The translations under genes were made by a program, and so were the position numbers. The notes under the pieces are model-generated. The model saw only the letters and a list, made by a program, of their open reading frames with translations, ran no database searches and was not told the DNA's origin. From positions 1 to 24,123 of the IMG/VR virus record IMGVR_UViG_3300047462_000706: 24,123 nt of DNA. One strand, 5' to 3'. This document shows positions 9,574 to 24,123 of the stretch, piece after piece (position 1 is the first letter of the stretch; each line of letters begins with the position of its first letter). The stretch is from a virus.

Positions 9574-9576
9574 GAC

Positions 9577-10190: not shown

Positions 10191-10200
10191 CCTGTGCTGC

Positions 10201-10359
10201 TTACTTGCTGCCGGTCTTCGACGGCATGGAGGCTTTCTCCATGTCGTAGTTGGCCGGATCCACGGAAGCGCGAAAGCCGTCCGGCTTGGGCGCTGCGGGA
10301 AGCACGGTGCCAGGCGAGGCCTGACCGTTGACCGGCTTCTTCATCTTCTGGGTTTCCAT
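10201..10359 (-). CDS. 52-residue protein between capsid and structural genes
   Basis: The chosen ATG (10359) is preceded by AGGAG six bases away; the longer start two codons upstream would overlap that SD. The product is small, polar and Pro/Lys-rich (KKPVNGQASPG, PAAPKPDGF, DPANYDMEKAS, a Lys/Ser C-terminus), with no TM segment or domain. It sits alone between two strong hairpins, after the major capsid gene. The good SD and conserved-looking spacing support a real gene. The role is unknown; many phages carry small capsid-accessory proteins here, but that is only an analogy. Confidence 0.6.
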   Translation of the reverse strand: METQKMKKPVNGQASPGTVLPAAPKPDGFRASVDPANYDMEKASMPSKTGSK

Positions 10360-10384
10360 GTTCATCTCCTGATGATCGGAAGGA

Positions 10385-10406
10385 GGCGCCGGCCGAAGCC
10401 GGCGCC
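10385..10406 (-). terminator. UUCG-loop terminator-like hairpin after the major capsid gene
   Basis: A nine-base-pair perfect stem GGCGCCGGC/GCCGGCGCC closes a TTCG loop on the minus strand, beginning about 20 bases after the capsid stop. The tail TCCTTCC is pyrimidine-rich but interrupted. It may act as a partial terminator or as a 3' stabiliser that raises the level of capsid mRNA relative to the genes after it. Confidence 0.7.
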
Positions 10407-10427
10407 CACGTCGCTGCTGCGATCGCC

Positions 10428-11390: not shown

Positions 11391-11431
11391 TGGAATTTCT
11401 CCGGCGGAGGACCGACGTCACATCGACTTTT

Positions 11432-12427
11432 CTATCGGTTGGGGTCGATGTTCTTGCTCAGATAAGCAGCGTCGATCCGTGTCTGGATTTCCAACGCTTC
11501 CTTCGCTCTGCCCTTGTACTTGCCCCTGCCGAAATCCTTCTGGAACTGCTGAATCTCGGAGAGCGCCATCCGGGTGTCCTGGCGCGTCTGGCGTGGCGGA
11601 GGATCTCCGCCACCGCCGCTGCCGGACACCGGGATCTGACGGGAGGTCGGATCGATGGACTGCGTCGGGTCGATACCGAGACTCCGGAGGAAATCGCGCA
11701 GCAGGCTGACCACGACCGTCGCATCCCAGCGCGCCTGTGCGGCGTGCAGCACGCTCTCTCGTGTCTCCACGGAGTACGGGGATACGGTGTGGGTCAACCA
11801 CTCACTGAACCGCGGGTCTTCCTTGCCCTTGACTGCCCAGCCATCCCAGCCGCTGACCTCGCGGTTGAGCTGGTCGTAGAACGCCTGCTGCTTGCGCGTC
11901 AGATCGTTCTTGCTCGACTCGGCGAGCTTCGTCTCGAGCGGCGCCACCGCCTGCCGTACCGCCTGCGCGGTCAGGTCAGCGGAACGCTTCTCGAGCTTCA
12001 GCATCGCGCCGAGCTGGCGCCGGCAGTAGTCCTCGCCAAGCTCATCGATGTCCTCTTGCGAGAAGTAGTCGAGAAGCGTGGGAGGTGCGGCCGGCGCCGC
12101 CGGCCTGGCCTGCAACTGCTGCTGCAGCTGCTGAACCAGTTCGGTGAGCTCTTCGTTCTGGCGGGTGAGGCTTTTCAGCATGCCCGCCTGGGTGGACAGT
12201 CTCTGATTCCAGTAGGCCTCGCGGTCCCCGTCGGGAGCCTGCGGCTGGCTGTTTGGTGGAATCGGTGGCAGCTCGATGCGTCCGGTCTGCTGGCTGTTGG
12301 CAGCCTCGGCAGTCGTGATCGCAGGAGCAGGTTGCGGTTGGGGCTGGCTCTTCGCCGGCTTGCCGAAATTGGCAGCCATCTCGGCGTCGAGCTGTGCCGC
12401 TGCTTGAATCCTCGGGTGTCTCGTCAT
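11432..12427 (-). CDS. Scaffolding protein
   Basis: 331 residues from ATG 12427; an in-frame GTG lies five codons upstream and cannot be excluded, because neither has a strong SD at ideal distance. The N-terminal 75 residues are Gln/Pro/Ala-rich and probably disordered (KSQPQPQPAP, PPIPPNSQPQAP). A heptad-rich coiled coil follows at about 85-110 (LTRQNEELTELVQQLQQQL), then a charged helical middle with DIDELGEDYCRRQLGAMLKLEK, and a basic C-terminus (QKDFGRGKYKGRAKEAL). Between portal and coat genes this composition is characteristic of phage scaffolding proteins, which guide coat assembly and leave the head before or during packaging. No protease active-site motif is visible. Confidence 0.8.
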   Translation of the reverse strand: MTRHPRIQAAAQLDAEMAANFGKPAKSQPQPQPAPAITTAEAANSQQTGRIELPPIPPNSQPQAPDGDREAYWNQRLSTQAGMLKSLTRQNEELTELVQQLQQQLQARPAAPAAPPTLLDYFSQEDIDELGEDYCRRQLGAMLKLEKRSADLTAQAVRQAVAPLETKLAESSKNDLTRKQQAFYDQLNREVSGWDGWAVKGKEDPRFSEWLTHTVSPYSVETRESVLHAAQARWDATVVVSLLRDFLRSLGIDPTQSIDPTSRQIPVSGSGGGGDPPPRQTRQDTRMALSEIQQFQKDFGRGKYKGRAKEALEIQTRIDAAYLSKNIDPNR

Positions 12428-12537
12428 GGGTGTGGGTCTCACTCCGACTGATCCACACGCGCACAGCTCTACCTCCGGGCTCCCTTGTGGGGTCCAGACA
12501 GGCGGCGGCTATGCCGGGGACTTACGGGCTGTGGTGT

Positions 12538-12556
12538 GCTGCCGAACGCCGGCAGC
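12538..12556 (-). other. GC-rich hairpin between portal-side gene and scaffold gene
   Basis: The 140-base gap between the 75-residue gene and the scaffold gene (12428-12567) contains a perfect seven-base-pair inverted repeat GCTGCCG/CGGCAGC with a five-base loop. No T run follows, so it is not a clear intrinsic terminator. It is probably an mRNA structure or processing site. No promoter-like pair was convincing in this gap. Confidence 0.45.
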
Positions 12557-12567
12557 GAGCGGAAGGC

Positions 12568-12795
12568 TTACTTCGCCCTCAAAGTCTTCTGAACCTCGAC
12601 ATCAGAATCGAGGAGGTCAATCAACAAGCTGGACCGGCCCTGCGCGCGGAAGAGGGCCACGCCCTCACCGCTGCGGCAGGTCTTGTCGGACTCGATCAGC
12701 AGCCGGGTCAGCAGGCCTTCACGCAGCCGCTGGAAGTCCGGGCTGACTTGGAGCCGGGAGAGCAATTCCGCCTCGTCCTTGCTGAGCTTGAGCAT
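12568..12795 (-). CDS. 75-residue protein overlapping the portal gene end
   Basis: ATG at 12795 with a GAGG element about six bases upstream, placed inside the portal coding sequence in another frame. The first 77 bases overlap the portal 3' end. The product is polar and helical: MLKLSKDEAELLSRLQVSPDFQRLREG (first fragment MLKLSKDEAELLSRL), then TRLLIESDKTC and a C-terminal LLIDLLDSDVEVQKTL. Acidic/leucine heptads suggest a helical bundle. Its position between portal and scaffold resembles small head-assembly factors of other phages, but I do not recognise the family. The start is supported by the SD and by the protein-like composition of the non-overlapping part. Confidence 0.68.
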   Translation of the reverse strand: MLKLSKDEAELLSRLQVSPDFQRLREGLLTRLLIESDKTCRSGEGVALFRAQGRSSLLIDLLDSDVEVQKTLRAK

Positions 12796-14974
12796 GCGCG
12801 CCTCGTTGCATGGATACCGCGATCTGAGCGCCGGCAATGCGCTCCTTGGTTGCGTTCTTCGCAGCCTCGACACGCTCGCTCGACTTCGCGGCGATCGCGG
12901 CCGGCGACGGCTGCTGGGCGGCCTGGGCCTGCTGCTGCATGATCTGCGCGACCAGCTGATCGAGCTCCGGACCATCCGGCACCACATTCGGCAGGTGCAG
13001 GCCCTTGAGATAGGCGCCCAGGATCTCGGCGATGTGCTTCATTCCGACGATGCTCTGGTACATCGGACTGGAGCCGAGCAGCTGCAGCGCCTGCATGCGG
13101 CCCTGCTGCATCGACTCCTTGATCAGCAGCGCGTTGGAGCCGCGCGGCACGATGTTGCAATCACCCTTGATCTGCGGGTCCGGGTTGTGAAGCATGTTGT
13201 GGATGAAGGCGTCGTACGTCGTCTCGGCCAAGACGTGGACGTCGATCTCGGTGATCGCGCGCCGCACGCCCTTCGCTGCCGCGCCCATCAGCATCGACAG
13301 GCCCTGCGCTGTGCTGCCTGCACCGCCGACCCGGTCGTCGCCGTAGGTGTAGCGCGGGATGCCGGTGGCGTCGTCGGCCTTCTCCTCGAACTTGTCGAAA
13401 ATCTGCATGAGCTCGGCAGCGTTCGATTCCGGCTGAAAGAACTCCAGCGGCCTGTTGGCGTTGCCGGAGCTGCCCGTCTCGTCATTGGTGAACTGCCAGA
13501 TCTTGTAGGGGAACATCGACTCGATGTCCTCGCCCGTCGGGATGCGGTCGATGTTCACGCCGACCATCGGGCCGGAGGCGAAGCCCATGTTGTTGGCCAG
13601 CGCGCGCGCAGCGGCGTTGGCCATGTCCTGGTGCGACTCGCACAGCTCGGGCACGGCGCGGCCCCAGAAGGAGCCCGGCACCTTCTCGTAGCTGGCGATG
13701 CGGTACGGCCGGCGGCCGAGCGGGTCGCTGTTGATCACGCACCGGATCACCCGGGTGCCGATCATGATGGCGTCGACCTCGTAGAACTTCTCGGGGTCGG
13801 TGATGCCCTTGACGCCCCAGGCCTCGAGGCAGCGACCACTGAGCGAACCCCAGTAGTGCAGCGCATCGATGGTGTCGTCCTGCGCGAACCAGTTGTAGTT
13901 GGTGTCGCCCTCGAGCCGCTGCCGCTCGGCGTCGGTCCAGATCCAGTTGCGCAGCAGACCGACCTGGTGGTTCGCCAGCACCCAGCGCACGGCCTCTTCG
14001 TCCGTGCCCGGCACGCCGATCATGTCGTACAGCTGCGTCTCGGTCATGCGCAGCCGCTCGATGAACGCGCGGTCCTGCGCGGTCGCCGCGAGCGGCGCCG
14101 GGTACGCATCGAACGGGCTCACGGCCGACCAGCCCAGCCCGACCTTGGACGTCACGATCGGCTCGAAGCCAGGGCCCCAGGTCAGCGACTTGCTGCGCTT
14201 CAGGAACGGGCCCTTCAGGATCGCGGTCATGTACGTCGAGAAATACTCGATGAAGTCGCCCAGGGCCAGGTCGAAGTCGCCGTCGTCCATGTCTTGGAAG
14301 ATCGCGTCCTCCATCTTCTCGGCGGCCCGCTCGGCGCGCTCGCGCGCCATCTGCTTGACCTCGGACTCCATCTGGTCGGCCATCTCGAAGGCCATCGCGT
14401 GGAAGTCTTCCTGCGACATCGGCTCGCCGCCGGCCTGGGCCGCCTGCGTCATGATCTGGCGCGCCTTCTGGGCCGCGCCCTTGATGATCATCGCCTTCAC
14501 TTCTTTCGGCAGATCCGGAATCGGCCGCGGCTCCAGGCCGCAGGCACGATCGCCGGGCGCCATCAGGATCTCCTTGATCCAGGCCGACAGCGCGCGGCAC
14601 TTGGTCGCGGCCACCGTCATGTAGATCGTGGAGTTGGCGCCGCCCTCGATGATCTCGGACAGCTCGCGATCCGAGTACACACCCTTGCGCATCCGCAAGC
14701 AGGCCAGCAGCCGCGTGTCGATGGTCTGGCGCGCCATCTTGTTGCGCATCCAGGCCTTGTTGATCTCGCCGGCCACGAAGCTGTGGCGGATCGCGCCGTA
14801 GTCGATCTGGGTCTCTTCGACCGGCTGCTCTGCGGCCTCGATCTCGCGGGTGACCTCGTCCGGCGTCTTGATCCGCATCAGGCCCTTGTAGACGGCCTGG
14901 CCCTGCTGCGGGCGGCCGACTGCGCCCATGGAAGCGGCGGCGCCAGCAGAAATCGCTTCTGCAGGTACGCTCAT
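12719..14974 (-). CDS. Portal protein
   Basis: 751 residues from ATG 14974, which overlaps the terminase stop (ATGA); a GTG two codons upstream is less likely. The portal forms the dodecameric DNA channel at one capsid vertex and docks terminase. Visible parts: an Ala-rich N-terminus, a helical wing with a strongly charged coiled stretch (about 190-240: MESEVKQMARERAERAAEKME), the core with SLTWGPGFEPIVTSKVG and SAVSPFDAYPAP, the stem/crown part with RRPYRIASYEKVPGSFWGR and DDATGIPRYTYGDDRVGGAG, and a Gln/Ala-rich C-terminal tail (about 690-751). Size (about 750) and the sequence pattern match portals of podoviruses rather than siphoviruses. Position directly after the large terminase agrees. 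The tail overlaps the start of the next gene. Confidence 0.9.
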   Translation of the reverse strand: MSVPAEAISAGAAASMGAVGRPQQGQAVYKGLMRIKTPDEVTREIEAAEQPVEETQIDYGAIRHSFVAGEINKAWMRNKMARQTIDTRLLACLRMRKGVYSDRELSEIIEGGANSTIYMTVAATKCRALSAWIKEILMAPGDRACGLEPRPIPDLPKEVKAMIIKGAAQKARQIMTQAAQAGGEPMSQEDFHAMAFEMADQMESEVKQMARERAERAAEKMEDAIFQDMDDGDFDLALGDFIEYFSTYMTAILKGPFLKRSKSLTWGPGFEPIVTSKVGLGWSAVSPFDAYPAPLAATAQDRAFIERLRMTETQLYDMIGVPGTDEEAVRWVLANHQVGLLRNWIWTDAERQRLEGDTNYNWFAQDDTIDALHYWGSLSGRCLEAWGVKGITDPEKFYEVDAIMIGTRVIRCVINSDPLGRRPYRIASYEKVPGSFWGRAVPELCESHQDMANAAARALANNMGFASGPMVGVNIDRIPTGEDIESMFPYKIWQFTNDETGSSGNANRPLEFFQPESNAAELMQIFDKFEEKADDATGIPRYTYGDDRVGGAGSTAQGLSMLMGAAAKGVRRAITEIDVHVLAETTYDAFIHNMLHNPDPQIKGDCNIVPRGSNALLIKESMQQGRMQALQLLGSSPMYQSIVGMKHIAEILGAYLKGLHLPNVVPDGPELDQLVAQIMQQQAQAAQQPSPAAIAAKSSERVEAAKNATKERIAGAQIAVSMQRGAHAQAQQGRGGIALPAPSQPGLPAAA

Positions 14975-16521
14975 TTCCACCGCTTCCGGACGACCTTACG
15001 GGCGACGGAGCGCGTCGCGGCAACGATCATCGATGGCGCTTGGCTCATGCTCAGGACTCCGTAACGGAAGGCATCGGCAGGGTGCGAGGCCCAGTCATGC
15101 AGCGGCTGGTCGCTCCAGATGCCCATCACCTCATTCCACTTCTTGCGATAGGACTCGAGCGCCTTGATGCCGGCGCCCGCGCGCTCCTCATCGAATACAC
15201 AGCGGCTTAGCGCATTGCGCACCGCTTCGATACCGTCGTCGCGCGGCAGCTCGGGCGCGATCTCGAACTTGATGCCGAGCTTCTCGGCACGCTCCAGCCG
15301 GCTCTCGCCGCTGCCGCCCCAGTCCGCGACCCGAAGGTCGTGCGGACCGATTGCGCGGCTGTAGGTGATGCCGTGCGCTTCGCGCCAGTCGTGCAGATGC
15401 TTGGCGTAATGCGGCAGCGGCTCTCCGCTGTTCTGGTAGAAGTCCACAATGCGGACCTCGGCGCCGTAGCGCTGCACGAACCAGATGCTGGTCGTGTCGT
15501 TGCCGATGTCCCACCAGGTCTCGACCGGAAGACCCGGCTCGATCGGCACACTGGTGACGCGGCCCTGCTGCCAGGCCAGCAGCATCTGCCGGCCGTAGTA
15601 CGCGCCTTCGGTGGACTGCTTGAATGCCTCGTCCGGCGTGCTCGGGTATTCCGAGTAGACGTCTTCGCCGAGCTCGCGCCACTTCCGGATGTACCACTCA
15701 CGCTGGCCAGTGGTGAGCAGCTGGCCGATTTTGATCTCGAGCTTGTCGAGGTACTCGCGTTCGTTCTGAGACTCCGCGAACGGCTCAAGGCCGATCATCG
15801 CGGTGTAGGTCGGCTCTCGCCACCAGGGCAGGAACCGGAACCGCCAATCGCTCGGGCTGGTTGGCGCTCGCTTCTGCGCCTCCTGCGTCAGCTCGTAGAA
15901 GTGACCGGCGCGGCCCTTGGCCGTGGCTTCGATCACCACCAGGCCCTGCTGCGGCACGGCCTGCATCGCGCCGGTGCGGATTTCCTCGGCTCGCTGCGGC
16001 ATGCGCGAGCAGATGTAGCCGTACTCGGTGATGTGCAGGATGTTCGGCGTTCCAGAGCGGAACGTGACGCCGACCCGGATACTGCTGTTGTTGTTCAGCA
16101 GCAGCTCGCCGCTATCGTTCTTGATTGCCCCGATGACTGACCGGATCTCCTCCGGCAGGCTCTCGTAAGCGAACTTGACCTTGTCCCTGAAGATCGTCTT
16201 CGCATCGTCCTTGGTGTGGGCGACGATGCCGATGCGCATGTTGCGGTTGAACAGCGCGGTGTCGAGCCAGAGGATGCAGTAGCCGGTCGTGCTGCCCAGC
16301 TGCCGGACCTTGAGATCGATGTTGCGGTGGCCCAGCGTGGCCCACTGCTCGAGCTGCGCCCAGTTGGGCTTGAACAGCTCCTTCTCACCATCCTTGTTGA
16401 TGAACCAGTAGAGGTTCCGCAGTCTCCACTGGCGGTCGAGGAGCTTCTCCCCGAGCGCTTCGACGGCGGTTGCCGAGTCATCGACATCATCCCGCATGGT
16501 TAGCGAGCTGAGCTTCGGCAC
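14971..16521 (-). CDS. terL: Terminase large subunit
   Basis: 516 residues with a GTG start two bases after the small-subunit stop. It is the ATPase/nuclease that translocates and cuts concatemeric DNA during packaging. ATPase part: an adenine-binding KPNWAQLEQW (about 51-60), a deviant Walker A VRQLGSTTG (about 72-80), a Walker B-type segment ILHITEYGYI (about 161-170) with the catalytic Glu, and a coupling motif IEATAKGRAG (about 197-206). Nuclease part: first acidic residue in WWDIGNDTT (Asp338), then PHDLRVADWG (about 393-402), and the C-terminal HDWASHPADAFRYG (about 475-488). The P-loop lacks the usual Lys after Gly, as is common in this terminase group. Adjacent small subunit and portal confirm the identity. 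Confidence 0.93.
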   Translation of the reverse strand: MPKLSSLTMRDDVDDSATAVEALGEKLLDRQWRLRNLYWFINKDGEKELFKPNWAQLEQWATLGHRNIDLKVRQLGSTTGYCILWLDTALFNRNMRIGIVAHTKDDAKTIFRDKVKFAYESLPEEIRSVIGAIKNDSGELLLNNNSSIRVGVTFRSGTPNILHITEYGYICSRMPQRAEEIRTGAMQAVPQQGLVVIEATAKGRAGHFYELTQEAQKRAPTSPSDWRFRFLPWWREPTYTAMIGLEPFAESQNEREYLDKLEIKIGQLLTTGQREWYIRKWRELGEDVYSEYPSTPDEAFKQSTEGAYYGRQMLLAWQQGRVTSVPIEPGLPVETWWDIGNDTTSIWFVQRYGAEVRIVDFYQNSGEPLPHYAKHLHDWREAHGITYSRAIGPHDLRVADWGGSGESRLERAEKLGIKFEIAPELPRDDGIEAVRNALSRCVFDEERAGAGIKALESYRKKWNEVMGIWSDQPLHDWASHPADAFRYGVLSMSQAPSMIVAATRSVARKVVRKRWK

Positions 16522-16523
16522 CT

Positions 16524-17018
16524 TCAGCTCTTGCCGATCAGGCTTCCGACACCCTCGCCATTGTCCTGCGCGCGCTTGAGCACCGCGGCCAACGCTTCAC
16601 CGACTGCGGCACCTGCAGTCTTGCCCTCTTCCGCGAACAGGTTTGCGTGGCGAGCCAACAACTCCAGCGCCTTGTTCCGGTCGCTGGCCTTCACGTCCTG
16701 GTTGATCCAGGTCGACTCGTCCACTTCCCACGCCTTCTTGCGGTCGCCAGTCTCGGGATCTAACAGCTTGCGGCTGTCGTGACGAACCACCGAGGCTAGG
16801 CGAAACAGGATCTCATCGCGCCCCATGTGGAGCGCCCTCATCGCGTCAGCCTTGAGAGTTTCGATCAGCGCCTGGACTTCAGGTTTTTTCAGGAGGTCAT
16901 GCGCCTGAGACCCGGCTGTCTTCGCGCTGTACTTTGCACGGATCGCAGCCTGGGTGGCGTTGTAGTCCTTGACGTACTCGTTGCAGAAGTTGATCTGCCT
17001 TGGGTTCAATGCGGCCAT
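16524..17018 (-). CDS. terS: Terminase small subunit
   Basis: 164 residues, ATG at 17018 sharing one base with the upstream stop (TGATG). The N-terminal 60 residues match the Terminase_2 family: LNPRQINFCNEYVKDYNATQAA followed by SAKTAGSQAHDLLKKPEVQALI, a helix-turn-helix that recognises the packaging site. The middle (HMGRDEILFRLASVVRHD, WINQDVKASDRNKALELLARHANLF) is the oligomerisation part, and the C-terminus is helical and Gly/Lys-rich. The protein forms a ring that recognises viral DNA and recruits the large subunit. Cos- or pac-type packaging cannot be told from this sequence. Confidence 0.9.
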   Translation of the reverse strand: MAALNPRQINFCNEYVKDYNATQAAIRAKYSAKTAGSQAHDLLKKPEVQALIETLKADAMRALHMGRDEILFRLASVVRHDSRKLLDPETGDRKKAWEVDESTWINQDVKASDRNKALELLARHANLFAEEGKTAGAAVGEALAAVLKRAQDNGEGVGSLIGKS

Positions 17019-17227
17019 CAGTGAAGCACCGGCGGCTCGAAGCAGTCCAGGCGCACGGCCATGTAGCCGAGGCCCACGATCTCGCAGACCGCGATGCTCG
17101 CCTCGTCTTCCACGTCGGTGACGTCGCCAAAGGCATCGACCATGTCGATGATGCGCAGCACCTGGCCGTCGTCGAGCACGACTTCTCGCCGGCGCAGGCT
17201 CACGGCGATCGCTTGCGGTTCGGTCAT
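17018..17227 (-). CDS. 69-residue protein of unknown function
   Basis: Start at ATG 17227, which overlaps the stop of the preceding gene (ATGA); the in-frame extension to 17461 lies in other genes and is rejected. The product is acidic and beta-rich, with VVLDDGQVLRIIDMVDAFGDVTDVEDEAS and a C-terminal LGYMAVRLDCFEPPVL (short fragments of these regions). There is no known motif. The tight fit into the run of small genes before the terminase supports a real gene. Function unknown. Confidence 0.7.
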   Translation of the reverse strand: MTEPQAIAVSLRRREVVLDDGQVLRIIDMVDAFGDVTDVEDEASIAVCEIVGLGYMAVRLDCFEPPVLH

Positions 17228-17451
17228 GGAATCACCTCGATTGCGAACACGGCCTTGGCGTACAGCCTCTGGACCATGTCGGGTTCCCGCTCCCACTCTT
17301 CTGTGTAAGTCCGGACCTTGGCGCGCACCTTCGTGGTGCCGAAGCGCGTGAAGGTGTCGCTGACGAGCTTGTTGAAGGCCAGCTCGTGGGTAAGGTCTCG
17401 GAGTTTCGGCAGCGTCGCTTCCTCGATTGGATAGCGCGCTGTGTACTTCAT
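17224..17451 (-). CDS. 75-residue protein of unknown function
   Basis: ATG at 17451 overlaps the previous stop (ATGA). The product has one alpha-beta-like pattern: ARYPIEEATLPKLRDLTHELAF, a basic KVRAKVRTYTEEWEREPDMVQRLY segment, and an aliphatic C-terminal strand AVFAIEVI. No known motif or TM segment. One member of a cluster of four small unknown genes between the lysis and terminase genes, a place where phages often carry host-takeover or packaging-accessory genes. Role unknown. Confidence 0.7.
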   Translation of the reverse strand: MKYTARYPIEEATLPKLRDLTHELAFNKLVSDTFTRFGTTKVRAKVRTYTEEWEREPDMVQRLYAKAVFAIEVIP

Positions 17452-17702
17452 CAGCCGTCACTCTCCGGGCTCATCCGCTTGACGATCTTGTGCTTCAGCG
17501 CCTCGGCCTTGCCCAGCAGGTCGAACAGGTTCTCGGCCGGCGTGTGGCATGTGTCCCAGGTGTCGTCGCTGTATTCGACGAGCATCACGACACCGACGAT
17601 GTCGCCGCGCTCGGCCCGATCAAGCGCTGTGCGAAGAACCTCAATGGAATTGGCGTTTGCCTCAGACCTTTGCGCGTGCAGCGGGACGACCTTGCCGCTC
17701 AC
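17451..17702 (-). CDS. 83-residue protein of unknown function
   Basis: GTG start at 17702 sharing its G with the previous stop (TAGTG). The N-terminus carries helix IEVLRTALDRAERGD, then a strand pair VGVVMLVEYSDDTWDTCHTP, followed by an amphipathic helix ENLFDLLGKAEALKHKIVK. The layout (helix, two strands, helix) looks like a compact alpha-beta fold. I do not recognise the family. It belongs to the same overlapping cluster as its neighbours, so it is probably cotranslated with them. Confidence 0.7.
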   Translation of the reverse strand: MSGKVVPLHAQRSEANANSIEVLRTALDRAERGDIVGVVMLVEYSDDTWDTCHTPAENLFDLLGKAEALKHKIVKRMSPESDG

Positions 17703-17995
17703 TACGCCGCAGCCTTCGACGGAGACGTCACGCCCGGCGGCAGGATCAGATCCTTCGGAGGGATGCCGGTGAGCGTCTCGTAGACCTCGGGCTCCGGCCT
17801 GGGCGCCGATGGCTCGCGCACGATCGGCACGAGTGGCTCATCCGTCGTCGGGTCGCGCACCAATTCCCACGCGGCGACGATTGCATCCTGCTGCGCCTTG
17901 TTGAACAGCATGCCGCTGGTGCGCTCGAGGAGCGTGACCAGGGAGAACTTGATCAGCTCCTGCTGTTTCGGCGTGAATTTCTTCGTGGCGCGCAT
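17702..17995 (-). CDS. 97-residue protein of unknown function
   Basis: ATG at 17995, 19 bases after the upstream stop. Residues about 1-45 are basic and helical (RATKKFTPKQQELIKFSLVTLLERTSGMLFNKAQQDAIVAAW read in parts), possibly nucleic-acid or protein binding. The rest is Pro/Glu-rich and probably disordered (VPIVREPSAPRPEPEVYE, PPKDLILPPGVTSP). First gene of the unknown cluster before the terminase. No family recognised. The frame is supported by the codon bias shared with its neighbours. Confidence 0.65.
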   Translation of the reverse strand: MRATKKFTPKQQELIKFSLVTLLERTSGMLFNKAQQDAIVAAWELVRDPTTDEPLVPIVREPSAPRPEPEVYETLTGIPPKDLILPPGVTSPSKAAA

Positions 17996-18014
17996 TCGAT
18001 TCTCGGGCTTGAGG

Positions 18015-18383
18015 TCAGGCGAAATGGAGGTGAGACCACACCTGCTGGAGCAGGAACACTACGAGCGCGCCGAAAATCGTCCATTGCTGGTTCTTGGCGC
18101 TCTTGGCCAGTTCGGACTTCGATGCACTTTCATCGCGCCGATACACTTCCAGCAGCCCGACACGGACTTCGAGCAGCGCCAGTTTTTGGGGAAGCTCGAC
18201 GGTCCTGTCGAGGCGCTCGATCAGGGATTCCAGCTTGCCGTTGATCTGCTGCAGAGACTGCTGAAGCAGGGCGACTTCCGTCTTCATATCGTTGAGTTTC
18301 CCCGCATTCTCGATATGCATCTCGTAGAGTCGATCGCTCTCCCGGCGGGTTGCGGTCCGACGGTCTGTACTCGCCGGAGGCAT
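18015..18383 (-). CDS. Coiled-coil protein with C-terminal TM segment (XhlA-like)
   Basis: 122 residues, ATG at 18383 overlapping the i-spanin stop (TAATG). Residues about 18-80 are one long heptad helix (IENAGKLNDMKTEVALLQQSLQQINGKLESLIERLD in parts, then QKLALLEVRVGLLEVYRR). The C-terminus has a single hydrophobic segment (about 100-118, WTIFGALVVFLLQQVW). A cytosolic coiled coil with a C-terminal membrane anchor is the plan of XhlA-type lysis-accessory proteins. Its place in the lysis cassette supports a role in membrane disruption or in controlling the holin. It might instead be a superinfection-exclusion type membrane protein. The motif evidence is structural, not family-level. Confidence 0.68.
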   Translation of the reverse strand: MPPASTDRRTATRRESDRLYEMHIENAGKLNDMKTEVALLQQSLQQINGKLESLIERLDRTVELPQKLALLEVRVGLLEVYRRDESASKSELAKSAKNQQWTIFGALVVFLLQQVWSHLHFA

Positions 18384-18820
18384 TACTGCGGACTCGTGTT
18401 CGCACGGATCAGGGCTTGGAGCTGCTCGAGCTGGATGGCGTTGCGTTCGGCGGCGACAAGGTCGTCAGCGAGTCCACTACCGGCGTCGGCCGGCGCGGCT
18501 GCATCAGCGGGCTTTCCAGAATCGCCAGCGGGCACTGGTACACCACCTGCGGCTGGCTGCTGCATGCTGCAAGCAGCGCGAACGATGCGAGTGCGAACAG
18601 TCTCAACCGGCACCTCGACCCGCTGGATTTTGTCGACATAAACCGTCTCCACCTTGGCTGAATCGGAACTCTGCTGCTGCACGATCTTCGTGGCGGCCTC
18701 GGCCGCTTTCGCGGCATCCGCTTCCCAGGCGTTGTGGGTGACTTGATGGCCGCCCCAGAACCCGAACGTGAGCGCAATGACGACCGCAGCGGCCGCCCAT
18801 GTGAATGGAATCGGAATCAT
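18383..18820 (-). CDS. Rz: i-spanin (Rz-like)
   Basis: 145 residues, ATG at 18820 sharing one base with the holin stop (TGATG). An N-terminal signal-anchor (about 5-24, FTWAAAAVVIALTFGFWGG) is followed by a periplasmic helical domain rich in Ala, Glu and Gln with heptads (EADAAKAAEAATKIVQQQ, then KIQRVEVPVETVRTRIVRA), a Pro/Ala-rich hinge and a C-terminal helix. This is the plan of the inner-membrane spanin subunit that, with the outer-membrane lipoprotein, fuses the two membranes in the last lysis step of Gram-negative hosts. The o-spanin gene is embedded in it in a different frame, exactly as in lambda. The sequence itself is divergent, so the name rests on topology and context. Confidence 0.85.
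   Translation of the reverse strand: MIPIPFTWAAAAVVIALTFGFWGGHQVTHNAWEADAAKAAEAATKIVQQQSSDSAKVETVYVDKIQRVEVPVETVRTRIVRAACSMQQPAAGGVPVPAGDSGKPADAAAPADAGSGLADDLVAAERNAIQLEQLQALIRANTSPQ
18409..18639 (-). CDS. Rz1: o-spanin lipoprotein (Rz1-like), embedded in Rz
   Basis: 76 residues in another frame, wholly inside the i-spanin gene, so it is easily missed. ATG at 18639 has a GGAG element about eight bases upstream. The N-terminus is basic (RCRLRL), followed by FALASFALLAAC: a lipoprotein signal with the lipobox LAAC and Cys26 as the lipidated residue. The mature part is short, with Pro/Ser-rich segments (SSQPQVVYQ, then SPLMQPRRPTPVV), ending Ser-rich. This is the classical embedded Rz1 type of lambda, in which the lipoprotein anchors in the outer membrane and pairs with the i-spanin. 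Host Gram-negative nature follows. The overlapping frame is directly visible. Confidence 0.86.
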   Translation of the reverse strand: MSTKSSGSRCRLRLFALASFALLAACSSQPQVVYQCPLAILESPLMQPRRPTPVVDSLTTLSPPNATPSSSSSSKP

Positions 18821-19107
18821 CAGGACTCACCCTTGGTTGAGGTGTTGGGCTGAATTGCCGGTGGCTGGTCGGGCTCGGTGTCCTTCTTCGCCCACAGCAG
18901 CGCGCCGATCCCGGTGATGAGACTGCCGACGCCGATGCCGAAGTCCTGCCAGGCGAACGGATGCTCGGGAGTGGCGATCCACATGCCGCGGATCGAGCCC
19001 GGCACGACCGCGGCGATCAGCAGCAGCCCGATCACACGGCCCATGTCGAAGGACTCACCCGATTTCGTCGTGGTGATGTCCTTGAGCAACTTGGCCGTCG
19101 TGGCCAT
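18820..19107 (-). CDS. Holin candidate (two TM segments)
   Basis: 95 residues from ATG 19107, which shares its A with the endolysin stop (TGATG); a GTG one codon earlier is also possible. It has two hydrophobic segments, about 23-43 (MGRVIGLLLIAAVVPGSIRG) and about 56-72 (FGIGVGSLITGIGALLW), a basic end after the second and a polar C-terminus rich in Pro, Thr and Asp. Two-TM proteins of this size next to an R-type endolysin are typical class II holins, which form the inner-membrane lesions that release the endolysin. Neighbouring spanin genes agree. No dual start (antiholin) is evident, although the ATG/GTG pair could allow two products one residue apart. Confidence 0.8.
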   Translation of the reverse strand: MATTAKLLKDITTTKSGESFDMGRVIGLLLIAAVVPGSIRGMWIATPEHPFAWQDFGIGVGSLITGIGALLWAKKDTEPDQPPAIQPNTSTKGES

Positions 19108-19613
19108 CACGGCGTCTTGATCGCGTCCAGCTCGCCGGCCGCCAGCACGCCACCGGCTGCCGTAAATGCGTTGGCCAGGCCCAGCAGCTTCTGCTGGTGC
19201 TGGCCGTAGTTATTGCCCGGCAGAGACGCCCAGATGTTCGAACACTTCTGGATGGCGCTGCGCAGATGGCCGCCCGCGATGTCAGTGAGGGCGACTCGCT
19301 CGCGAATCTGCTGGACCGCGATCATGTCCTGGGCAAGCGGACCGAAGTCCAGCAGCCTCAGCAGCTTCTGGTAGTCCGGCCACCAGCGATGGATCAGCTG
19401 GTAGCGGCCGGCGGCTGTCGAGTCCTCGGCCTGGTTGTAGATGTCCGGGTGCGTGCCGTAGCTCGAGAACAGCAGCGGCTTGCCCGGCGTCGAGCCGACC
19501 AGGACGTTGTAGCCGTCGTCGCTTTCAGCCAGCAGCTGCGGCCCGATCTCGGACCAGGCAAGCATGTCGAGGAACGCCGCCAGATTGACCGGCAGCGTGG
19601 TCGAGCGCGGCAT
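19107..19613 (-). CDS. R: Lambda R-type endolysin (lytic transglycosylase)
   Basis: 168 residues, ATG at 19613. The similarity to the lambda endolysin R is plain over the full length: FLDMLAWSE near residues 14-22, the GYNVLVGS segment, AGRYQLIHRWWPDYQKLL, VQQIRERVALTDIAGG and the C-terminal CSNIWASLPGNNYGQHQQK. Glu22 aligns with the catalytic Glu19 of lambda R. The enzyme cleaves the glycan MurNAc-GlcNAc bond and leaves 1,6-anhydro-MurNAc. There is no signal peptide, so it depends on the holin to reach the periplasm. Length is close to the family (158 in lambda), with no truncation. It is followed at one base by the holin gene, and preceded by the Ala-rich first late gene. Confidence 0.95.
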   Translation of the reverse strand: MPRSTTLPVNLAAFLDMLAWSEIGPQLLAESDDGYNVLVGSTPGKPLLFSSYGTHPDIYNQAEDSTAAGRYQLIHRWWPDYQKLLRLLDFGPLAQDMIAVQQIRERVALTDIAGGHLRSAIQKCSNIWASLPGNNYGQHQQKLLGLANAFTAAGGVLAAGELDAIKTP

Positions 19614-19616
19614 GGC

Positions 19617-20201
19617 TCAGCTGACGAGGTGCTTGACCGCGGCGACCACACCCTCGCGAATCCGGATCTGGGCGATCTCGAGCTCGTTGCCGAGGCGCCG
19701 GCCGGCAGCGACGGCCTCGGCCTCCAGGGCCGCCAGCCGGTTGTGGAAATTGCCGTAGAGCTCTTCCAGATCGTAGAGCGCATCCTCCTCGGCTTCCGAG
19801 AGTTCCGGCTTCAGCGCCAGCAACGCACCGACTTCTGCGCGCGTCTGGTTGGCGTGCTGCTGGTTGACCGCCACCGGCGCAGGCGCATCGACCGCCGGCT
19901 CGGACGCCGGAGCAGGCGAATCCGGCGCGGCGCCAGCATCAGCAGCAGCCGGCGCGACCGCGGTTTCAGCAGTGGCGCCATCGGCGGCGGCATCGGTTGT
20001 CGCGCTGGCAGCGGCGTTGTCAACAGCGCTGGAGACGGTCGGAGCCTCGACAGCGGCCGGAGCATCGGCGGCAGCATCGACCGGTGCCGGAACATCGGCC
20101 GGTGCGGCATCGCCAGCTGCGCCGGCAGCGGCGCCATCGGCGGCGGCTTCGGCCATGACGAGGGCAAGCACGGCGTACATCGTGAATCGGGTGCGGATCA
20201 T
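19617..20201 (-). CDS. Ala/Pro-rich protein with N-terminal hydrophobic leader, first late gene
   Basis: 194 residues, ATG at 20201 with GGAG about eight bases upstream, only about 20 bases after the terminator stem. It starts with a basic/hydrophobic leader (MIRTRFTMYAVLALVMAEA) that may be a signal peptide or anchor. Residues about 20-120 are an extreme low-complexity Ala/Pro/Asp/Val stretch (AAAGAAGDAAPADVPAPVD and many more). Residues about 120-194 are helical and charged (LSEAEEDALYDLEELYGNFHNRLAALEAEAV, read in parts). Function is unknown. Being the first gene after the late switch and next to the lysis cassette, it might act at the envelope in lysis or assembly. Disordered Ala/Pro linkers are often used to span the periplasm, but this is inference only. 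Confidence 0.72.
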   Translation of the reverse strand: MIRTRFTMYAVLALVMAEAAADGAAAGAAGDAAPADVPAPVDAAADAPAAVEAPTVSSAVDNAAASATTDAAADGATAETAVAPAAADAGAAPDSPAPASEPAVDAPAPVAVNQQHANQTRAEVGALLALKPELSEAEEDALYDLEELYGNFHNRLAALEAEAVAAGRRLGNELEIAQIRIREGVVAAVKHLVS

Positions 20202-20224
20202 TTTCGAGTCTCCAGAAACGAAGA

Positions 20225-20243
20225 AACCCGCACGAGGCGGGTT
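20225..20243 (-). terminator. Rho-independent terminator before the late genes
   Basis: A perfect seven-base-pair stem AACCCGC/GCGGGTT with a CTCGT loop on the minus strand is followed by the T-rich tail TCTTCGTTTC. It lies between the early HTH gene and the first late gene, whose SD comes directly after the tail. Placed after a Q-like gene it is the natural candidate for a tR'-type terminator that antiterminated polymerase must read through. Confidence 0.82.
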
Positions 20244-20247
20244 CGGA

Positions 20248-20285
20248 AAGATTCTCGGTCAGGTGTGACCAGTCTGGAGAATCTT
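20248..20285 (-). promoter_or_regulatory. Nested inverted repeat upstream of the late terminator
   Basis: Nine-base arms (AAGATTCTC and GAGAATCTT, 20 bases apart) enclose a second inverted repeat GGTCA/TGACC with a four-base loop. Transcribed, it would fold into a long interrupted hairpin right before the terminator. As DNA it could be an operator for the adjacent HTH protein or a recognition site for the Q-like protein. The symmetry is directly visible; the role is inferred. Confidence 0.6.
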
Positions 20286-20286
20286 G

Positions 20287-20315
20287 CGGCTATTTTTGCG
20301 GCTGCACTACGTCAA
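20287..20315 (-). promoter_or_regulatory. Candidate late promoter
   Basis: A good -35 element TTGACG (20310-20315) lies 17 bases from a poor -10 candidate TAGCCG (20287-20292), inside the 3' end of the HTH gene. A start near 20280 would give a leader of about 50 bases before the terminator. The weak -10 means an activator or a different -10 would be needed. Tentative. Confidence 0.3.
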
Positions 20316-20565
20316 AGTGGCGTAAGTTCCGCATGGAACGCTCCAGCTTGATCACGATGCGGCTCGGCGTCTCCGCTCTTGACTGGGCTGCGGCAACTGC
20401 CGCCTGCTTCAGAGGCTCGACCATCTGATCGCGTTTCAATCCGATCTTCAGCCAGCGCTGATAGGTCCGGAACGGCACGCGGCACAGCTCAGCGGCCTCC
20501 ATCTGAGTGAGGCCGGCGATGATCTGCCAGCGGCGGATCTGGTTCCCGTCAAGCCTTGATGGCAC
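20290..20565 (-). CDS. Small HTH DNA-binding protein
   Basis: I start it at GTG 20565 (91 residues), preceded by GAGGT five bases away; GTG 20577 is an alternative. It overlaps the end of the Q-like gene by about 17 bases. The N-terminal half holds a helix-turn-helix of Cro/XRE-like type: QIRRWQIIAGLTQMEAAELC followed by VPFRTYQRWLKIG, in which RTYQRW is the recognition helix. The second half is helical and basic (KQAAVAAAQSRAET, KLERSMRNLRHF). It is the last early gene, directly before the late switch, so it may regulate early-to-late timing and could bind the inverted repeat just downstream. The target is not shown by the sequence. Confidence 0.72.
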   Translation of the reverse strand: MPSRLDGNQIRRWQIIAGLTQMEAAELCRVPFRTYQRWLKIGLKRDQMVEPLKQAAVAAAQSRAETPSRIVIKLERSMRNLRHFDVVQPQK

Positions 20566-21097
20566 GACGCACCTCACCTGTTCTGCCCTTTCGAACCCGC
20601 AAGGCCACACTGAGCTCCAGCTGAAGGCGTCGCTTCACGCGCCGGATCGTGCGGTAGAAGACATCGACACTGACGCCGTGGATTTCCGCCACTCGTGCGG
20701 CCGGCGTCCAGCCGCTGTAGCCGGTGTGTAGCGGCGCCTTGCGCTGCAGATAAATCCTGCGGTGATCGTAGGCGCCGATCTGGATGTCGCCATCCACGCG
20801 GAGCAGGTGGGTTGTCTTGACCTCCTTCTCGCCGACGTAGTGCGTCAGCACCATGGCGCGATCCCGCTGCGGGTGCTCTGCCAGGAACGCATCGATCAGC
20901 GCGGACATGCCCTGCCCATCCTTCAGCGTGCGCAGCACCTCGGCCAGCACCGGGTTCGAATGGCTGCCAGCGCCGCGCTTGCCGCCCACATGGCCGTCGA
21001 CGCCGCCACCCCAGCCCTGCGCCAGGCCGGCCGTGACTTTCCACACGCCCCATTCCTTCAGCTGGTTCTCGATCACTTCGGCGGGTGACTCGTTCAC
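20549..21097 (-). CDS. Probable Q-type late gene antiterminator/regulator
   Basis: 182 residues, GTG start at 21097 with a very strong SD (GAGGAGG, five bases away) and overlapping the previous stop (GTGA). The N-terminus has NQLKEWGVWKVTAG, like the 'LERWGAW' opening of one Q antiterminator family (Phage_antitermQ). The middle has a helical DRAMVLTHYVGEKE segment. The C-terminal part has a sigma-like helix-turn-helix: GWTPAARVAEIHGVSVDVFYR followed by TIRRVKRRLQLEL, in the same position as in Q proteins. It sits at the end of the early operon before a terminator and the lysis genes, exactly where Q lies. Residues about 30-45 (GWGGGVDGHVGGKRGAG) are unusual. The name rests on motif and context, so a different HTH regulator is possible. 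Confidence 0.72.
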   Translation of the reverse strand: MNESPAEVIENQLKEWGVWKVTAGLAQGWGGGVDGHVGGKRGAGSHSNPVLAEVLRTLKDGQGMSALIDAFLAEHPQRDRAMVLTHYVGEKEVKTTHLLRVDGDIQIGAYDHRRIYLQRKAPLHTGYSGWTPAARVAEIHGVSVDVFYRTIRRVKRRLQLELSVALRVRKGRTGEVRRAIKA

Positions 21098-21480
21098 GCA
21101 TGCCTCCTCAGGTACGCATCACGCGGCAGAATTTTCGAATTGGCTTGCGGTGGCTGATCAACGCGCTGCTTGGTGCCGACGACTTGAAGCATCCCCAGCT
21201 GCCACATCGCGAACCAGGTGCGCTCCCGGGCGATGCGCATGGCCTCGCGCTTGGCCGCCCGGTTCAGCCGATGGCCCTGGTCGATCTCGGCATGGCACGC
21301 CGAACAGCCCCAGGCGCAGAAAACGTCGTGCGCTTTGATCGACTTGCCATGGCCATGCTCGGCCTCGTTCGAATGGCAACTCACCACCGTCGCGGGATCG
21401 TTGTTGCAGATCCCGTCGAGCCGGATCATGCAGGGCTGGCCGCGGGCCAGATCCAGCAGGTGGCGGTTGCGGTAGTTCAA
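21094..21480 (-). CDS. YbcO/DUF1364-like putative nuclease
   Basis: 128 residues with a TTG start at 21480 overlapping the upstream stop (TTGA). The next ATG is codon 18, after the first motif Cys, so TTG fits the family length better. The sequence closely follows the lambdoid YbcO family: LARGQPCMIRLDGICNNDPATVV, then SCHSNEAEHGHGKS and the signature CAWGCSACHAEIDQGH (fragments). Cys17, Cys25, Cys35-His36, Cys55, Cys59 and Cys62-His63 form likely metal ligands of an HNH-like fold. In lambdoid phages the gene lies in the nin-like region near Q with recombination or resolvase genes. Nuclease activity is a family proposal rather than something shown here. C-terminal region is extended by about 25 residues. 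Confidence 0.85.
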   Translation of the reverse strand: MNYRNRHLLDLARGQPCMIRLDGICNNDPATVVSCHSNEAEHGHGKSIKAHDVFCAWGCSACHAEIDQGHRLNRAAKREAMRIARERTWFAMWQLGMLQVVGTKQRVDQPPQANSKILPRDAYLRRHA

Positions 21481-21707
21481 ACGGTCGGGTCTACCGTGTT
21501 CAGCGGAAGCGACTTGTAGACGCCGCGGATGTTCCGACTGAAGTGCGAACCGATCGAGTCCGCGCCCATCAGCTTGGCGTGTTCCTCCGCCGGAACGCCG
21601 TAGTAGACGTGAGTCTTCCCGCTCGGAAACTGAACGCGCAGCTGATCCGTCGCGGGGTCATGGGCCACGGCCTTGATGGCCGAAGAATTGACAGGTTCCA
21701 TTTTCAT
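21477..21707 (-). CDS. KTSC-domain protein
   Basis: 76 residues, ATG at 21707 overlapping the previous stop (ATGA), so the longer in-frame start at 21926 is rejected. Nearly the whole protein is one KTSC domain: VNSSAIKAVAHDPATDQLRVQF, the strand SGKTHVYYGVP, then EEHAKLMGADSIGSHFSRNIRG (fragments of one continuous region). The family name comes from the conserved Ser/Ile, Tyr and Ser-x-Gly-x-x-F/Y-N positions (SIGSHF). KTSC domains occur alone in phages and fused to other domains in bacteria, and are thought to bind nucleic acid; the function is not established. It is packed between a DUF1367-like gene and the YbcO-like gene. Confidence 0.85.
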   Translation of the reverse strand: MKMEPVNSSAIKAVAHDPATDQLRVQFPSGKTHVYYGVPAEEHAKLMGADSIGSHFSRNIRGVYKSLPLNTVDPTV

Positions 21708-22219
21708 GCGGCTTTCCTCATCAGTGATTCCATCTCTTCGATCTGGTAGACGTTCAGGCCCGGCCAGTAGCGCCGCTCGACGTACTGGCAGAAGCGCAGG
21801 AAGATCTCCATGAACTCGCCTTCGTCCATGAGTTCGAACGCCAGGCTTTTCGGGTAGCGAACGGTCATCATTCCGATGGTCGGCACGTCGACCGCCATCT
21901 CGTCGCAGCCGACGTTGGCCTCCCACTGCAGACGCTTCAGGACCGCGTGGGCAGCCATGCCTTCGAAGGTATCGAGGTGTTCGGCCAGCAGGGCGCCGAA
22001 CTTGTGGACGATTCGGTTGTTGCGGGCCGACCGCTGCTTGCGGAGCGTGGCTGACAGGAAATCGCCGACCTTGTATTGGCGGTCACGCATGTCCTGCTTG
22101 TAGCTGTCGTCGATCGGCACCAGCACGCCCTCGAGCGGTGCCACCGACTTCGCGCGCACAACCTCGAGCATGATGGTCGGCGCCTCGACCTTCCTTGGGA
22201 GGACGTTGGTGTTCTTCAT
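21704..22219 (-). CDS. DUF1367-like phage protein
   Basis: 171 residues, ATG at 22219 overlapping the DnaC stop (ATGA). It carries the pattern of DUF1367: a short strand LEVVRAKSVAPLEGVLVPIDD, YKVGDFLSATLRKQRSARNNR leading to HKFGALLAEHLDTF, then MMTVRYPKSLAFELMDEGEFMEIF and the aromatic C-terminus YVERRYWPGLNVYQIEEME (fragments). The family is found in early regions of lambdoid prophages between replication genes and late regulators, with no assigned activity; a recombination or NinB-like role has been suggested by context. Length agrees with the family. No catalytic residues can be named. Confidence 0.78.
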   Translation of the reverse strand: MKNTNVLPRKVEAPTIMLEVVRAKSVAPLEGVLVPIDDSYKQDMRDRQYKVGDFLSATLRKQRSARNNRIVHKFGALLAEHLDTFEGMAAHAVLKRLQWEANVGCDEMAVDVPTIGMMTVRYPKSLAFELMDEGEFMEIFLRFCQYVERRYWPGLNVYQIEEMESLMRKAA

Positions 22220-23004
22220 GCCGCGCGCTCCTTGCGATAGCTCGACCAGTCGAACAGCAGCACCCGGCCTCCGTTGTCCATGAGGCGATCCAACACCCGA
22301 TCGCCGACACAGCGCGCCAGCTCCGGAACGGTCAGGTTCGCGGCGAGCACAGTGGGTCGGCGCGCGCGGTAGCGCTGGTCGATCACGTCTGAGATCAGGC
22401 CCACCTCGTTGTCTGACGCGGTCTGTGAGACGCCAACCTCATCCAGCACCAGCAGTCGACACTCCGCATAGAGGCGAATGACGTCAGCCTCGCTCTCGCC
22501 GCTGCTGCGCGACCAGGTCGATCGGATGTGACGGACCATGTCGCCGACGGTCGAGTAACGACCGCTGTGGCCGGCCACGATCACGGCGCGAAGCACCGCA
22601 ATGGCGAGGTGTGTCTTGCCGGTGCCTGGCGTGCCGAGCAGGATGCGGCCGCCGACCGCGCCATCGCCGTTGGCTACGGCCCGCGCGAAGACCTTCAGGT
22701 CGCCATGGTTGGCGGCGCGTGGACCGGCCGCCTCGTAACTCAGGAAAGATGACTCCAGAAAACGCGGCGGCACGCCGGCCGCGACGATGCGCGCCAGGAT
22801 TGCCTCCTTCCGCTCGCGCCGATCTTTCTCCTCGCGCGCCAGCTGCGAGCAGGCCATGCACCCAGTCGGAAATGCTCCGACCTGGCGATCGCCGTCGTGG
22901 AAGATGCGGATCGGGTAGCTGCCGTGAGTCGGGCAAGATCCTTCGCCGGCCGTCTCGGTATAGCCACCGCGGAGCGCGCGCAGCATGTCGAATCGATCGG
23001 TCAC
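22216..23004 (-). CDS. dnaC: DnaC-like AAA+ helicase loader
   Basis: 262 residues. I start it at GTG 23004, which overlaps the replication gene stop (GTGA) and has GGGAGG about six bases upstream; the 136-residue N-terminal extension is a shadow of the upstream gene. A zinc-finger-like part near the N-terminus has Cys24, His27, Cys49 and Cys52. The AAA+ core has Walker A GTPGTGKT (124-131), Walker B LLVLDE (184-189), sensor-type AANLTVPELA (221-230) and the arginine-finger-type RCVGDRVLDRL (231-241). DnaC-like proteins load the host DnaB helicase onto the phage origin. Its coupling to the initiator gene parallels lambda O-P or phage replisome operons. Cooperation with DnaB is established for the family; details here are inferred. 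Confidence 0.92.
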   Translation of the reverse strand: MTDRFDMLRALRGGYTETAGEGSCPTHGSYPIRIFHDGDRQVGAFPTGCMACSQLAREEKDRRERKEAILARIVAAGVPPRFLESSFLSYEAAGPRAANHGDLKVFARAVANGDGAVGGRILLGTPGTGKTHLAIAVLRAVIVAGHSGRYSTVGDMVRHIRSTWSRSSGESEADVIRLYAECRLLVLDEVGVSQTASDNEVGLISDVIDQRYRARRPTVLAANLTVPELARCVGDRVLDRLMDNGGRVLLFDWSSYRKERAA

Positions 23005-23771
23005 AGGAGCCTCCCGCTGGACGACACGCCGGCGCTGTAATCCTTGGCCGAAAGGCCGGTATGCGAGCCGCCGGTCTTCGAGCAGGCTGCGGCCGTTTTC
23101 AGAAGCCATGGCACCGGGTCGCTTGGTCGCTCGGCATCGGCGCGATCCAGCGCTGCCATCACGGCGATGTCGCCGTGCTCCTTGCGGAGCTTGCCGAGCA
23201 GACTGCGCGCGGCGTCCGGTTTGCTGCCGGCGGTGGTGAGCAGCAGCACGCCGCGGTCGAACAGTGCCTTGATCGGGTCCACTGCCGCTGGCGTCGGCTC
23301 GGCAGGCGGTGGCGCTGCAGTCTGGGCACCGACCGCGGCAGTCGGCGGCTCGCCGCCCGACGGAGTCGGAAAATCTTCTCCTTTCCCTTCCCTTCCTTTC
23401 CCTTCCAACCACGAATCCTCGCGAGTATTCGAGAGTGCTCGCGGGGGCTCAGGAAATACAGGCTTGGATGGCTTATCAATTTTCTGGTGTTTCAACCAGT
23501 TATGGATCTCCAGATAGGTCGATCCATCGACGACATACCGGCGGATGCAACCTTCGCGCTCGAGCTCGCTCAACCAGCCCTCGATCAAGCCTGGAGCGTC
23601 GTCGTCGTAGGGGAAAAGAGTGCTCGCGAGCATTCGCGAGGCCGCGCGAGTCCTCCCGTGGTCGTCGCAAACCGGCCAGAGCATGACGAACAGCAGCCGC
23701 GCATCACGCGACACGTTGCCCATGCTTTCGGACTGCGGGAACTCAGGTTTGATTGATCGAATTCTTGCCAT
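23001..23771 (-). CDS. Phage replication initiation protein (winged-helix, DnaT/O-like)
   Basis: 256 residues. Start at ATG 23771 with GGGA about eight bases upstream; a GTG nine codons earlier has no SD. The N-terminal domain (about 1-90) is a winged-helix type common to phage initiators: ARIRSIKPEFPQSESMG, then RDARLLFVMLWPVCDDHGR and LEREGCIRRYVVDG, ending in EIHNWLKHQKI. A low-complexity Lys/Gly/Glu and Pro/Ala linker (about 100-150) follows, encoded by a purine-rich tract. The C-terminal part (about 150-215) has helices GVLLLTTAGSKPD and RSLLGKLRKEHGDIAVMAALDRAD resembling replisome-organiser tails. It should bind the phage origin and recruit the loader encoded next. Repeats within the gene may be that origin. 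Confidence 0.85.
   Translation of the reverse strand: MARIRSIKPEFPQSESMGNVSRDARLLFVMLWPVCDDHGRTRAASRMLASTLFPYDDDAPGLIEGWLSELEREGCIRRYVVDGSTYLEIHNWLKHQKIDKPSKPVFPEPPRALSNTREDSWLEGKGREGKGEDFPTPSGGEPPTAAVGAQTAAPPPAEPTPAAVDPIKALFDRGVLLLTTAGSKPDAARSLLGKLRKEHGDIAVMAALDRADAERPSDPVPWLLKTAAACSKTGGSHTGLSAKDYSAGVSSSGRLL
23418..23640. repeat. Repeated TCGCGAG elements with nearby purine tract (origin candidate)
   Basis: Within the replication gene the heptamer TCGCGAG occurs at 23419-23425, 23624-23630 and 23634-23640, and the 12-mer AGAGTGCTCGCG occurs twice (23432-23443, 23617-23628). A homopurine tract on the minus strand (about 23380-23407) lies just downstream. In lambdoid phages iterons followed by an asymmetric, easily melted tract inside the initiator gene form the origin. 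The elements are only loosely spaced, and the GC-rich context raises chance matches. Confidence 0.35.
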
Positions 23772-23880
23772 GTGTGTTTCCCAAGCGTTGGCCCTCACGC
23801 CCCATTGGTTAGAGGGCCGGGCGTGGGTGGTGTGGGGAGCACCATCCGGGGGCTGCAGACCCCCTGCCCGGCCTTTGCTG
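23772..23880 (-). promoter_or_regulatory. Intergenic leader with two inverted repeats before the replication gene
   Basis: The 109-base gap between the CII-like and replication genes holds GGGGG-CTGCAGA-CCCCC (23848-23864) and a second inverted repeat GGCCCTC/GAGGGCC with a 15-base spacer (23790-23818). No T run follows the first, so it is not an evident terminator. These may be leader RNA structures or operator-type sites controlling replication gene expression. No clear sigma70 promoter was found. Confidence 0.4.
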
Positions 23881-24123
23881 TCAGCTGTCGGCTTGCATTG
23901 CTCGCAAGGGATCCATCGCGAGCGCGGACTCCGCGATCGAGCACATGGCCTTCAGCTTGTTGGTGTCGACGGTGGTCGCGTTGGCGTCCACCACCTTGAG
24001 ATTCAGGGCTTCGAGCAGGGTCTTGAACTGCGTCAGGCGCAACGCGGCCGTGTTGCCCTTGACCTTGCTGAAGGTGCCCTCGTCGATGCCTGCGGCGCTG
24101 GCGATCGCGGCCTGTTTCGGGCT
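23881..24123 (-). CDS. CII/Cro-like HTH regulator, 5' end outside window
   Basis: 80 residues of the C-terminal part are visible; the 5' end is cut off by the window edge. The visible N-terminal segment is a helix-turn-helix: SPKQAAIASAAGIDEGTFS followed by KVKGNTAALRLTQFKTLLEA, comparable with the region of lambda CII containing 'AVGVDKSQISRWK'. The segment after it (LNLKVVDANATTVDTNKLKAM) and the helical end resemble the CII dimer/tetramer part, and the total size would fit CII (about 97). It is transcribed into the replication genes, as lambda cII is into O. CII-type activators turn on lysogeny promoters. A Cro- or other phage repressor-type HTH protein cannot be excluded without the missing start. 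Confidence 0.72.
   Translation of the reverse strand, partial: SPKQAAIASAAGIDEGTFSKVKGNTAALRLTQFKTLLEALNLKVVDANATTVDTNKLKAMCSIAESALAMDPLRAMQADS

Follow-up and report, generated by a model that had tools for sequence, protein, structure and literature searches.

A compact gap between regulatory and lysis genes of an IMG/VR virus as a possible attenuated late-operon leader

The window, i.e. the whole stretch of 24,123 nucleotides that was analysed, corresponds to positions 1 to 24,123 of the virus record IMGVR_UViG_3300047462_000706. From 23.8 kb down, its minus strand encodes replication genes, NinB-like, KTSC and HNH genes, a 182-aa Q-like protein and a small HTH protein; an 88-nt non-coding gap (20289-20202) follows, and then an Ala-rich gene, the endolysin, a small unassigned gene, an Rz-like gene, the terminase, the portal and the head genes. 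This gap is the sole one longer than 25 nt within 12.7-23.8 kb, and a TTGACG hexamer, two copies of AGCCGCAA, a nested inverted repeat, a terminator-like hairpin and a GGAG all lie in it or beside it. The features, all on the minus strand, are listed from upstream to downstream:

20549-21097, minus: Q-like gene with a GTG start, encoding 182 aa; LKEWGVW at the N-terminus, followed by ALIDAF and HYV, with a C-terminus that is HTH-like by eye
20290-20610, minus: gene of the small HTH protein, longest frame 106 aa, start codon uncertain, stop at 20290
20310-20315, minus: candidate -35 TTGACG, inside the end of the HTH gene, flanked by CACT/AGTG
20296-20303, minus: AGCCGCAA, copy 1 of a tandem direct repeat with a 12-nt period
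20292-20287, minus: would-be -10 TAGCCG, 17 nt on from TTGACG
20284-20291, minus: AGCCGCAA, copy 2, sharing bases with both the would-be -10 and the nested repeat, at the edge of the latter
20248-20285, minus: nested inverted repeat or leader hairpin, 38 bases, AAGATTCTC-CAGACT-GGTCA-CACC-TGACC-GAGAATCTT
20273-20280, minus: UCUCCAGA, 5' strand of an alternative helix (predicted fold), exclusive with the outer repeat arms
20224-20244, minus: intrinsic-terminator-like hairpin GAACCCGCCTCGTGCGGGTTT, then the tail CTTCGTTTCT; stem of about -12 kcal/mol
20209-20216, minus: UCUGGAGA, 3' strand of the alternative helix (predicted fold), which includes the Shine-Dalgarno GGAG
19617-20201, minus: first gene 3' of the putative leader, Ala-rich, 194 aa, signal-like N-terminus, ATG at 20201
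19107-19613, minus: endolysin (PHROG 90, E 2.9e-44), the anchor for finding relatives

The Ala-rich 194-aa protein had no family match; an Ala/Thr-rich protein (2876-3424) encoded 5' of the endolysin in locus L116 resembles it. As for the endolysin, its relatives reach identities of up to 66%.

Regarding the nested repeat, the 38-base element with GGTCA/TGACC inside that the initial annotation described is present at 20285-20248; its outer arms of 9 bp (AAGATTCTC, 20285-20277; GAGAATCTT, 20256-20248) enclose the inner arms of 5 bp. The window contains one nested 9+5 repeat, and 20 shuffled versions of the window contain 0.3 each on average; an after-the-fact estimate from these figures gives a chance of about 0.001 for the 88-nt gap, and its occurrence at this position is thus unlikely by chance. 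Only 3 of 1000 shuffles of its own sequence fold as well or better as RNA. Its energy of -14 kcal/mol places it at about rank 3500 of the 24085 windows of 38 nt, and such a hairpin is not exceptional in this GC-rich genome. The repeat has a single site in the window. An exact 18-mer taken from it had two matches in viral contigs, both set aside because of their unrelated contexts, and a looser pattern with six free bases had no match.

The position of the repeat bears on its function. Every possible -10 lies 5' of it, and 3 nt separate it from the terminator, leaving no room for a -10 before the latter. The Q-binding elements known so far sit between -35 and -10 (PMC6606751, PMC7969949, PMC11150451), and the proposal of a new Q-recognition site therefore puts it in the wrong place. 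The repeat is best read as a leader hairpin and not as a Q site.

The proposed rho-independent terminator is found, as a sequence feature, in the hairpin with a tail at 20244-20224, between the promoter position and the first late gene; the tail 3' of the stem is interrupted (TTTCTTCGTTTCT). Terminator-like sites are as frequent in the window as expected (12 found, 11.7 expected), and this one carries weight by its position in the gap and by the relatives, not by the scan count. The Shine-Dalgarno sequence of the first late gene was also correctly placed: GGAG lies at 20213-20210, and 8 nt separate it from the ATG at 20201. The 5' arm of the terminator is complementary over 13 bp to about 20606-20592; this was rejected as chance, as it ranked only about 31st of 759 upstream segments.

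As for the promoter, the TTGACG hexamer does lie at 20315-20310 on the minus strand, but what follows does not complete it: a consensus promoter scan of 4200-24123 returned none, and the pair TTGACG-17-TAGCCG scored 4.73, rank 97 on its strand, with a scoring matrix. This score was the 4th lowest among the 25 loci compared. The would-be -10, TAGCCG, is without the final T; the promoter at TTGACG is weak, with no acceptable -10. The late promoter, with both -35 and -10 ahead of the leader, by which a Q-dependent late switch (pR'-QBE-tR') is recognised, was not found here.

The tandem AGCCGCAA is placed between TTGACG and the nested repeat, roughly where a Q site of the phage 21 type would lie, and it has a P of 0.011 in shuffles of 20202-20320; this value, like those for the nested repeat and for the Shine-Dalgarno complementarity given below, was calculated after the fact and is not independent of how the feature was noticed. 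If any DNA site for a factor exists here, the tandem AGCCGCAA by TTGACG is a better placed candidate than the nested repeat.

Of the two upstream proteins that are candidate regulators, neither significantly matches any Q family. The frame of the 182-aa Q-like protein is present at 20549-21097 on the minus strand, but the product had no significant match in Pfam, PHROGs, PDB or phage genomes, and it falls outside the zinc-motif Q family of the Dyella-order prophages. By eye, its layout of WGxW, ALIDAF, HYV and HTH resembles Phage_antitermQ; against a five-member PF06530 profile, hhalign gave an E of 0.0025 with a probability of 12%, and some shuffled copies did equally well with HMMER; the likeness of layout is weak. 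The predicted structure, with a mean pLDDT of 37.6, was unusable. In the Dyella order itself, most PF06530 matches are confined to the C-terminal half of the profile, lie in frames of some 200 aa and presumably represent sigma-factor region 4.

The small HTH protein matches HTH_23 with an E of 7e-5, just under the cut-off (4.9e-5 with the shorter frame), which is a generic HTH match only. Relatives of the two proteins were sought in viral contigs, phages and genome contigs, and none were found; for the Q-like protein, about 800 genomes from two orders yielded no believable relative, nor did 299 genomes from one order for the HTH protein. In the relatives search, 5 of 17 matches were inspected and read as noise. 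No close relative of the gap region was found either. HTH-like matches to the small HTH protein, with weak E-values, occur on the opposite strand just 5' of the terminase in several relatives (loci L004, L005, L008, L011 and L023).

Prophages in Dyella and others were reached via the endolysin. The sample comprised 24 loci of the Dyella order with a zinc-motif (lambda-Q-like) Q gene (L113, L114 and L145-L167, minus the duplicate L151), and their Q proteins mostly carry CxxC motifs, with L163 and L167 as the members without them; these Q proteins are unrelated by sequence to the regulator of the window. In 18 of the 24 loci, the Q stop is followed within 110 nt by an intrinsic terminator (0.7 in shuffles, maximum 4), and 17 have an inverted repeat with arms of at least 6 and a gap of 3-12 at -15 to +45 of this stop (2.4 in shuffles, maximum 7); the loci come from one order and include some close kin, so that these counts are not independent events. 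As in the window, such loci (e.g. L113 in D. lutea and L114 in D. japonica) combine the regulator gene, an inverted repeat, a strong terminator and the late genes within about 100 nt. L113 and L114 also have a related endolysin downstream, and in L113 GGAG and a start codon come immediately after the terminator. Very short leaders are therefore normal in this order, and the reservation that the leader of the window is too short when compared to that of lambda falls away.

The repeats themselves differ. Those of the Dyella-order loci have arms of 6-10 and a gap of 3-12 and often enclose or adjoin a -35; read in the sequences, their loop often holds a -35-like hexamer (TTGAGA, TTGAGT, TTGTGA, TTGAAA, TTGAGG or TCGACG), and they are possibly Q-binding elements. 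In the window, the gap of the repeat is 20, and the same rule (arms of at least 6, gap 3-12, -15 to +45) finds none. The repeat of the window, lying 3' of any possible -10 and touching the terminator, is thus not the same element, which argues further against its being a Q-recognition site. In L114, L146, L147, L148 and L150, the leader starts with a motif like CTCTGCCGCTACGTGCGACC, with the hairpin CGC-TTCGT-GCG, right after the -10. As regards the minimal switch of the pR'-qut-tR' type that had been proposed for the window, the anatomy and the terminator hold and are common in these relatives; the nested repeat as the Q element does not hold, the promoter is weak and the Q protein is a candidate only.

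Among the characterised systems, phage 21 has its terminator downstream of the late promoter, and its Q-binding element consists of two direct repeats, with TGAGCA subsites contacted at -21 and -13 (PMC6606751). The window shares with the Q, pR' and tR' of phage 21 the terminator downstream of the late promoter position, and its two AGCCGCAA copies could be direct repeats of this kind; however, the word is different, the period is 12 nt, there is no good -10 and the Q is a candidate only. AlpA of Pseudomonas aeruginosa and GafYZ of the Caulobacter gene transfer agent are antiterminators without sequence similarity to lambda Q (PMC7969949, PMC11150451); the AlpA terminators lie just before the first gene (PMC7969949), while GafY and GafZ form a two-protein regulator, and the GafZ site is an inverted repeat (PMC11150451). 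The AlpA and GafYZ sites, unlike the nested repeat of the window, lie between -35 and -10. Finally, the isrK RNA of Salmonella Gifsy-1 (RF01394) is comparable to the leader as a phage RNA of similar size ending in a terminator; its covariance-model match was weak (21.3 bits against a threshold of 50) and skipped the nested repeat, and it was rejected together with a Trp leader match.

The gene order (NinB/HNH-type, Q-like, HTH, gap, Ala-rich, endolysin, Rz-like, terminase), the terminator in the gap and the relatives point to an attenuated late-operon leader, of a known kind and probably under antitermination, with an orphan regulator; we give this reading about an even chance. The gap 20289-20202 would be the leader of the late operon, which includes lysis and structural genes, and a polymerase that starts at the end of the HTH gene or further upstream would make a short RNA, with the bulged hairpin at 20285-20248 followed by the intrinsic terminator at 20244-20224. 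Most transcripts would stop at this terminator until a phage factor lets the polymerase read into 20201 and beyond, and we infer that this factor would most likely be the 182-aa product of the upstream Q-like gene, and possibly also the small HTH protein.

Alternatively, the hairpin and the terminator could mark no more than the end of the early/middle operon behind the HTH gene, with the late genes expressed by leakage or from an unrecognised promoter and with no antitermination involved. That the terminator comes directly after the HTH stop would fit such a plain boundary, as would the lack of a confirmed Q protein and of a good promoter; yet no other gap of comparable size precedes the late genes to hold their promoter, which would have to be upstream of or inside the terminator, since the Shine-Dalgarno sequence of the next gene follows within about 11 nt. 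We regard this explanation as rather unlikely. The nested repeat could also act at the DNA level, as a putative operator for the small HTH or the Q-like protein, serving as repressor site or roadblock, and the HTH protein encoded beside the palindrome agrees with it, as do the inverted repeats that the relatives have at this boundary. This seems quite improbable, given that the arms are asymmetric, with a 6-nt insertion on one side only, that the site is single in the window and that it lies 3' of the possible promoter. The put sites of HK022 consist of two stem-loops. An RNA of this type, acting in cis on the polymerase without a protein, would be consistent with a leader that begins with a stable bulged hairpin and contains a terminator; however, the window has a single bulged hairpin, and neither put nor any other Rfam family was matched at threshold, which makes this suggestion of the initial annotation very improbable indeed.

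A further explanation moves the control to translation, with two alternative partners for 20280-20273, one inside the nested repeat and the other the Shine-Dalgarno region of the gene at 20201. The RNA ending at the terminator is predicted to fold into the nested hairpin plus the terminator; as soon as the Shine-Dalgarno region has been transcribed, a pairing of UCUCCAGA with UCUGGAGA becomes possible in its place, and the two pairings are exclusive. In RNA from 20320 with the coding sequence to 20150, the predicted probabilities are 0.82 for the nested hairpin and 0.18 for the Shine-Dalgarno helix, which rises to 0.95-1.00 in RNA from 20282-20278, again with 52 nt of the coding sequence. The complementary stretch of 8 bp that links the leader to the Shine-Dalgarno region has a P of 0.025. 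Transcripts from far upstream would accordingly keep the ribosome site open, and those starting at about 20282-20278 would bury it. These preferences are predicted from energies only and decided by small differences: the folds differ by only about 1 kcal/mol in the full leader, and added coding sequence can reverse the preference. The direction is also odd for a late gene, as local late transcripts would be silenced, and such a switch is improbable as the main explanation.

Returning to the attenuated leader under antitermination, known antiterminators (lambda Q, 21Q, AlpA and GafZ) share little or no sequence, so that new ones are recognised mainly by anatomy, and the locus in the window is a unit small enough to be tested, whose regulator is an orphan. 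It is conceivable, as a long shot, that the 182-aa protein, perhaps with the HTH protein, represents an unrelated class of late antiterminator, which would load at the tandem AGCCGCAA, with a leader fold set by the start site, and control both readthrough and the translation of the first late gene. In the Dyella order, the repeats often found around the -35 after zinc-motif Q genes suggest a shared, testable way of loading Q there. Elsewhere in the window, at 3163-3188, there is a short tandem repeat, CCATTGGCG, with a 9-bp period and nearly three copies.
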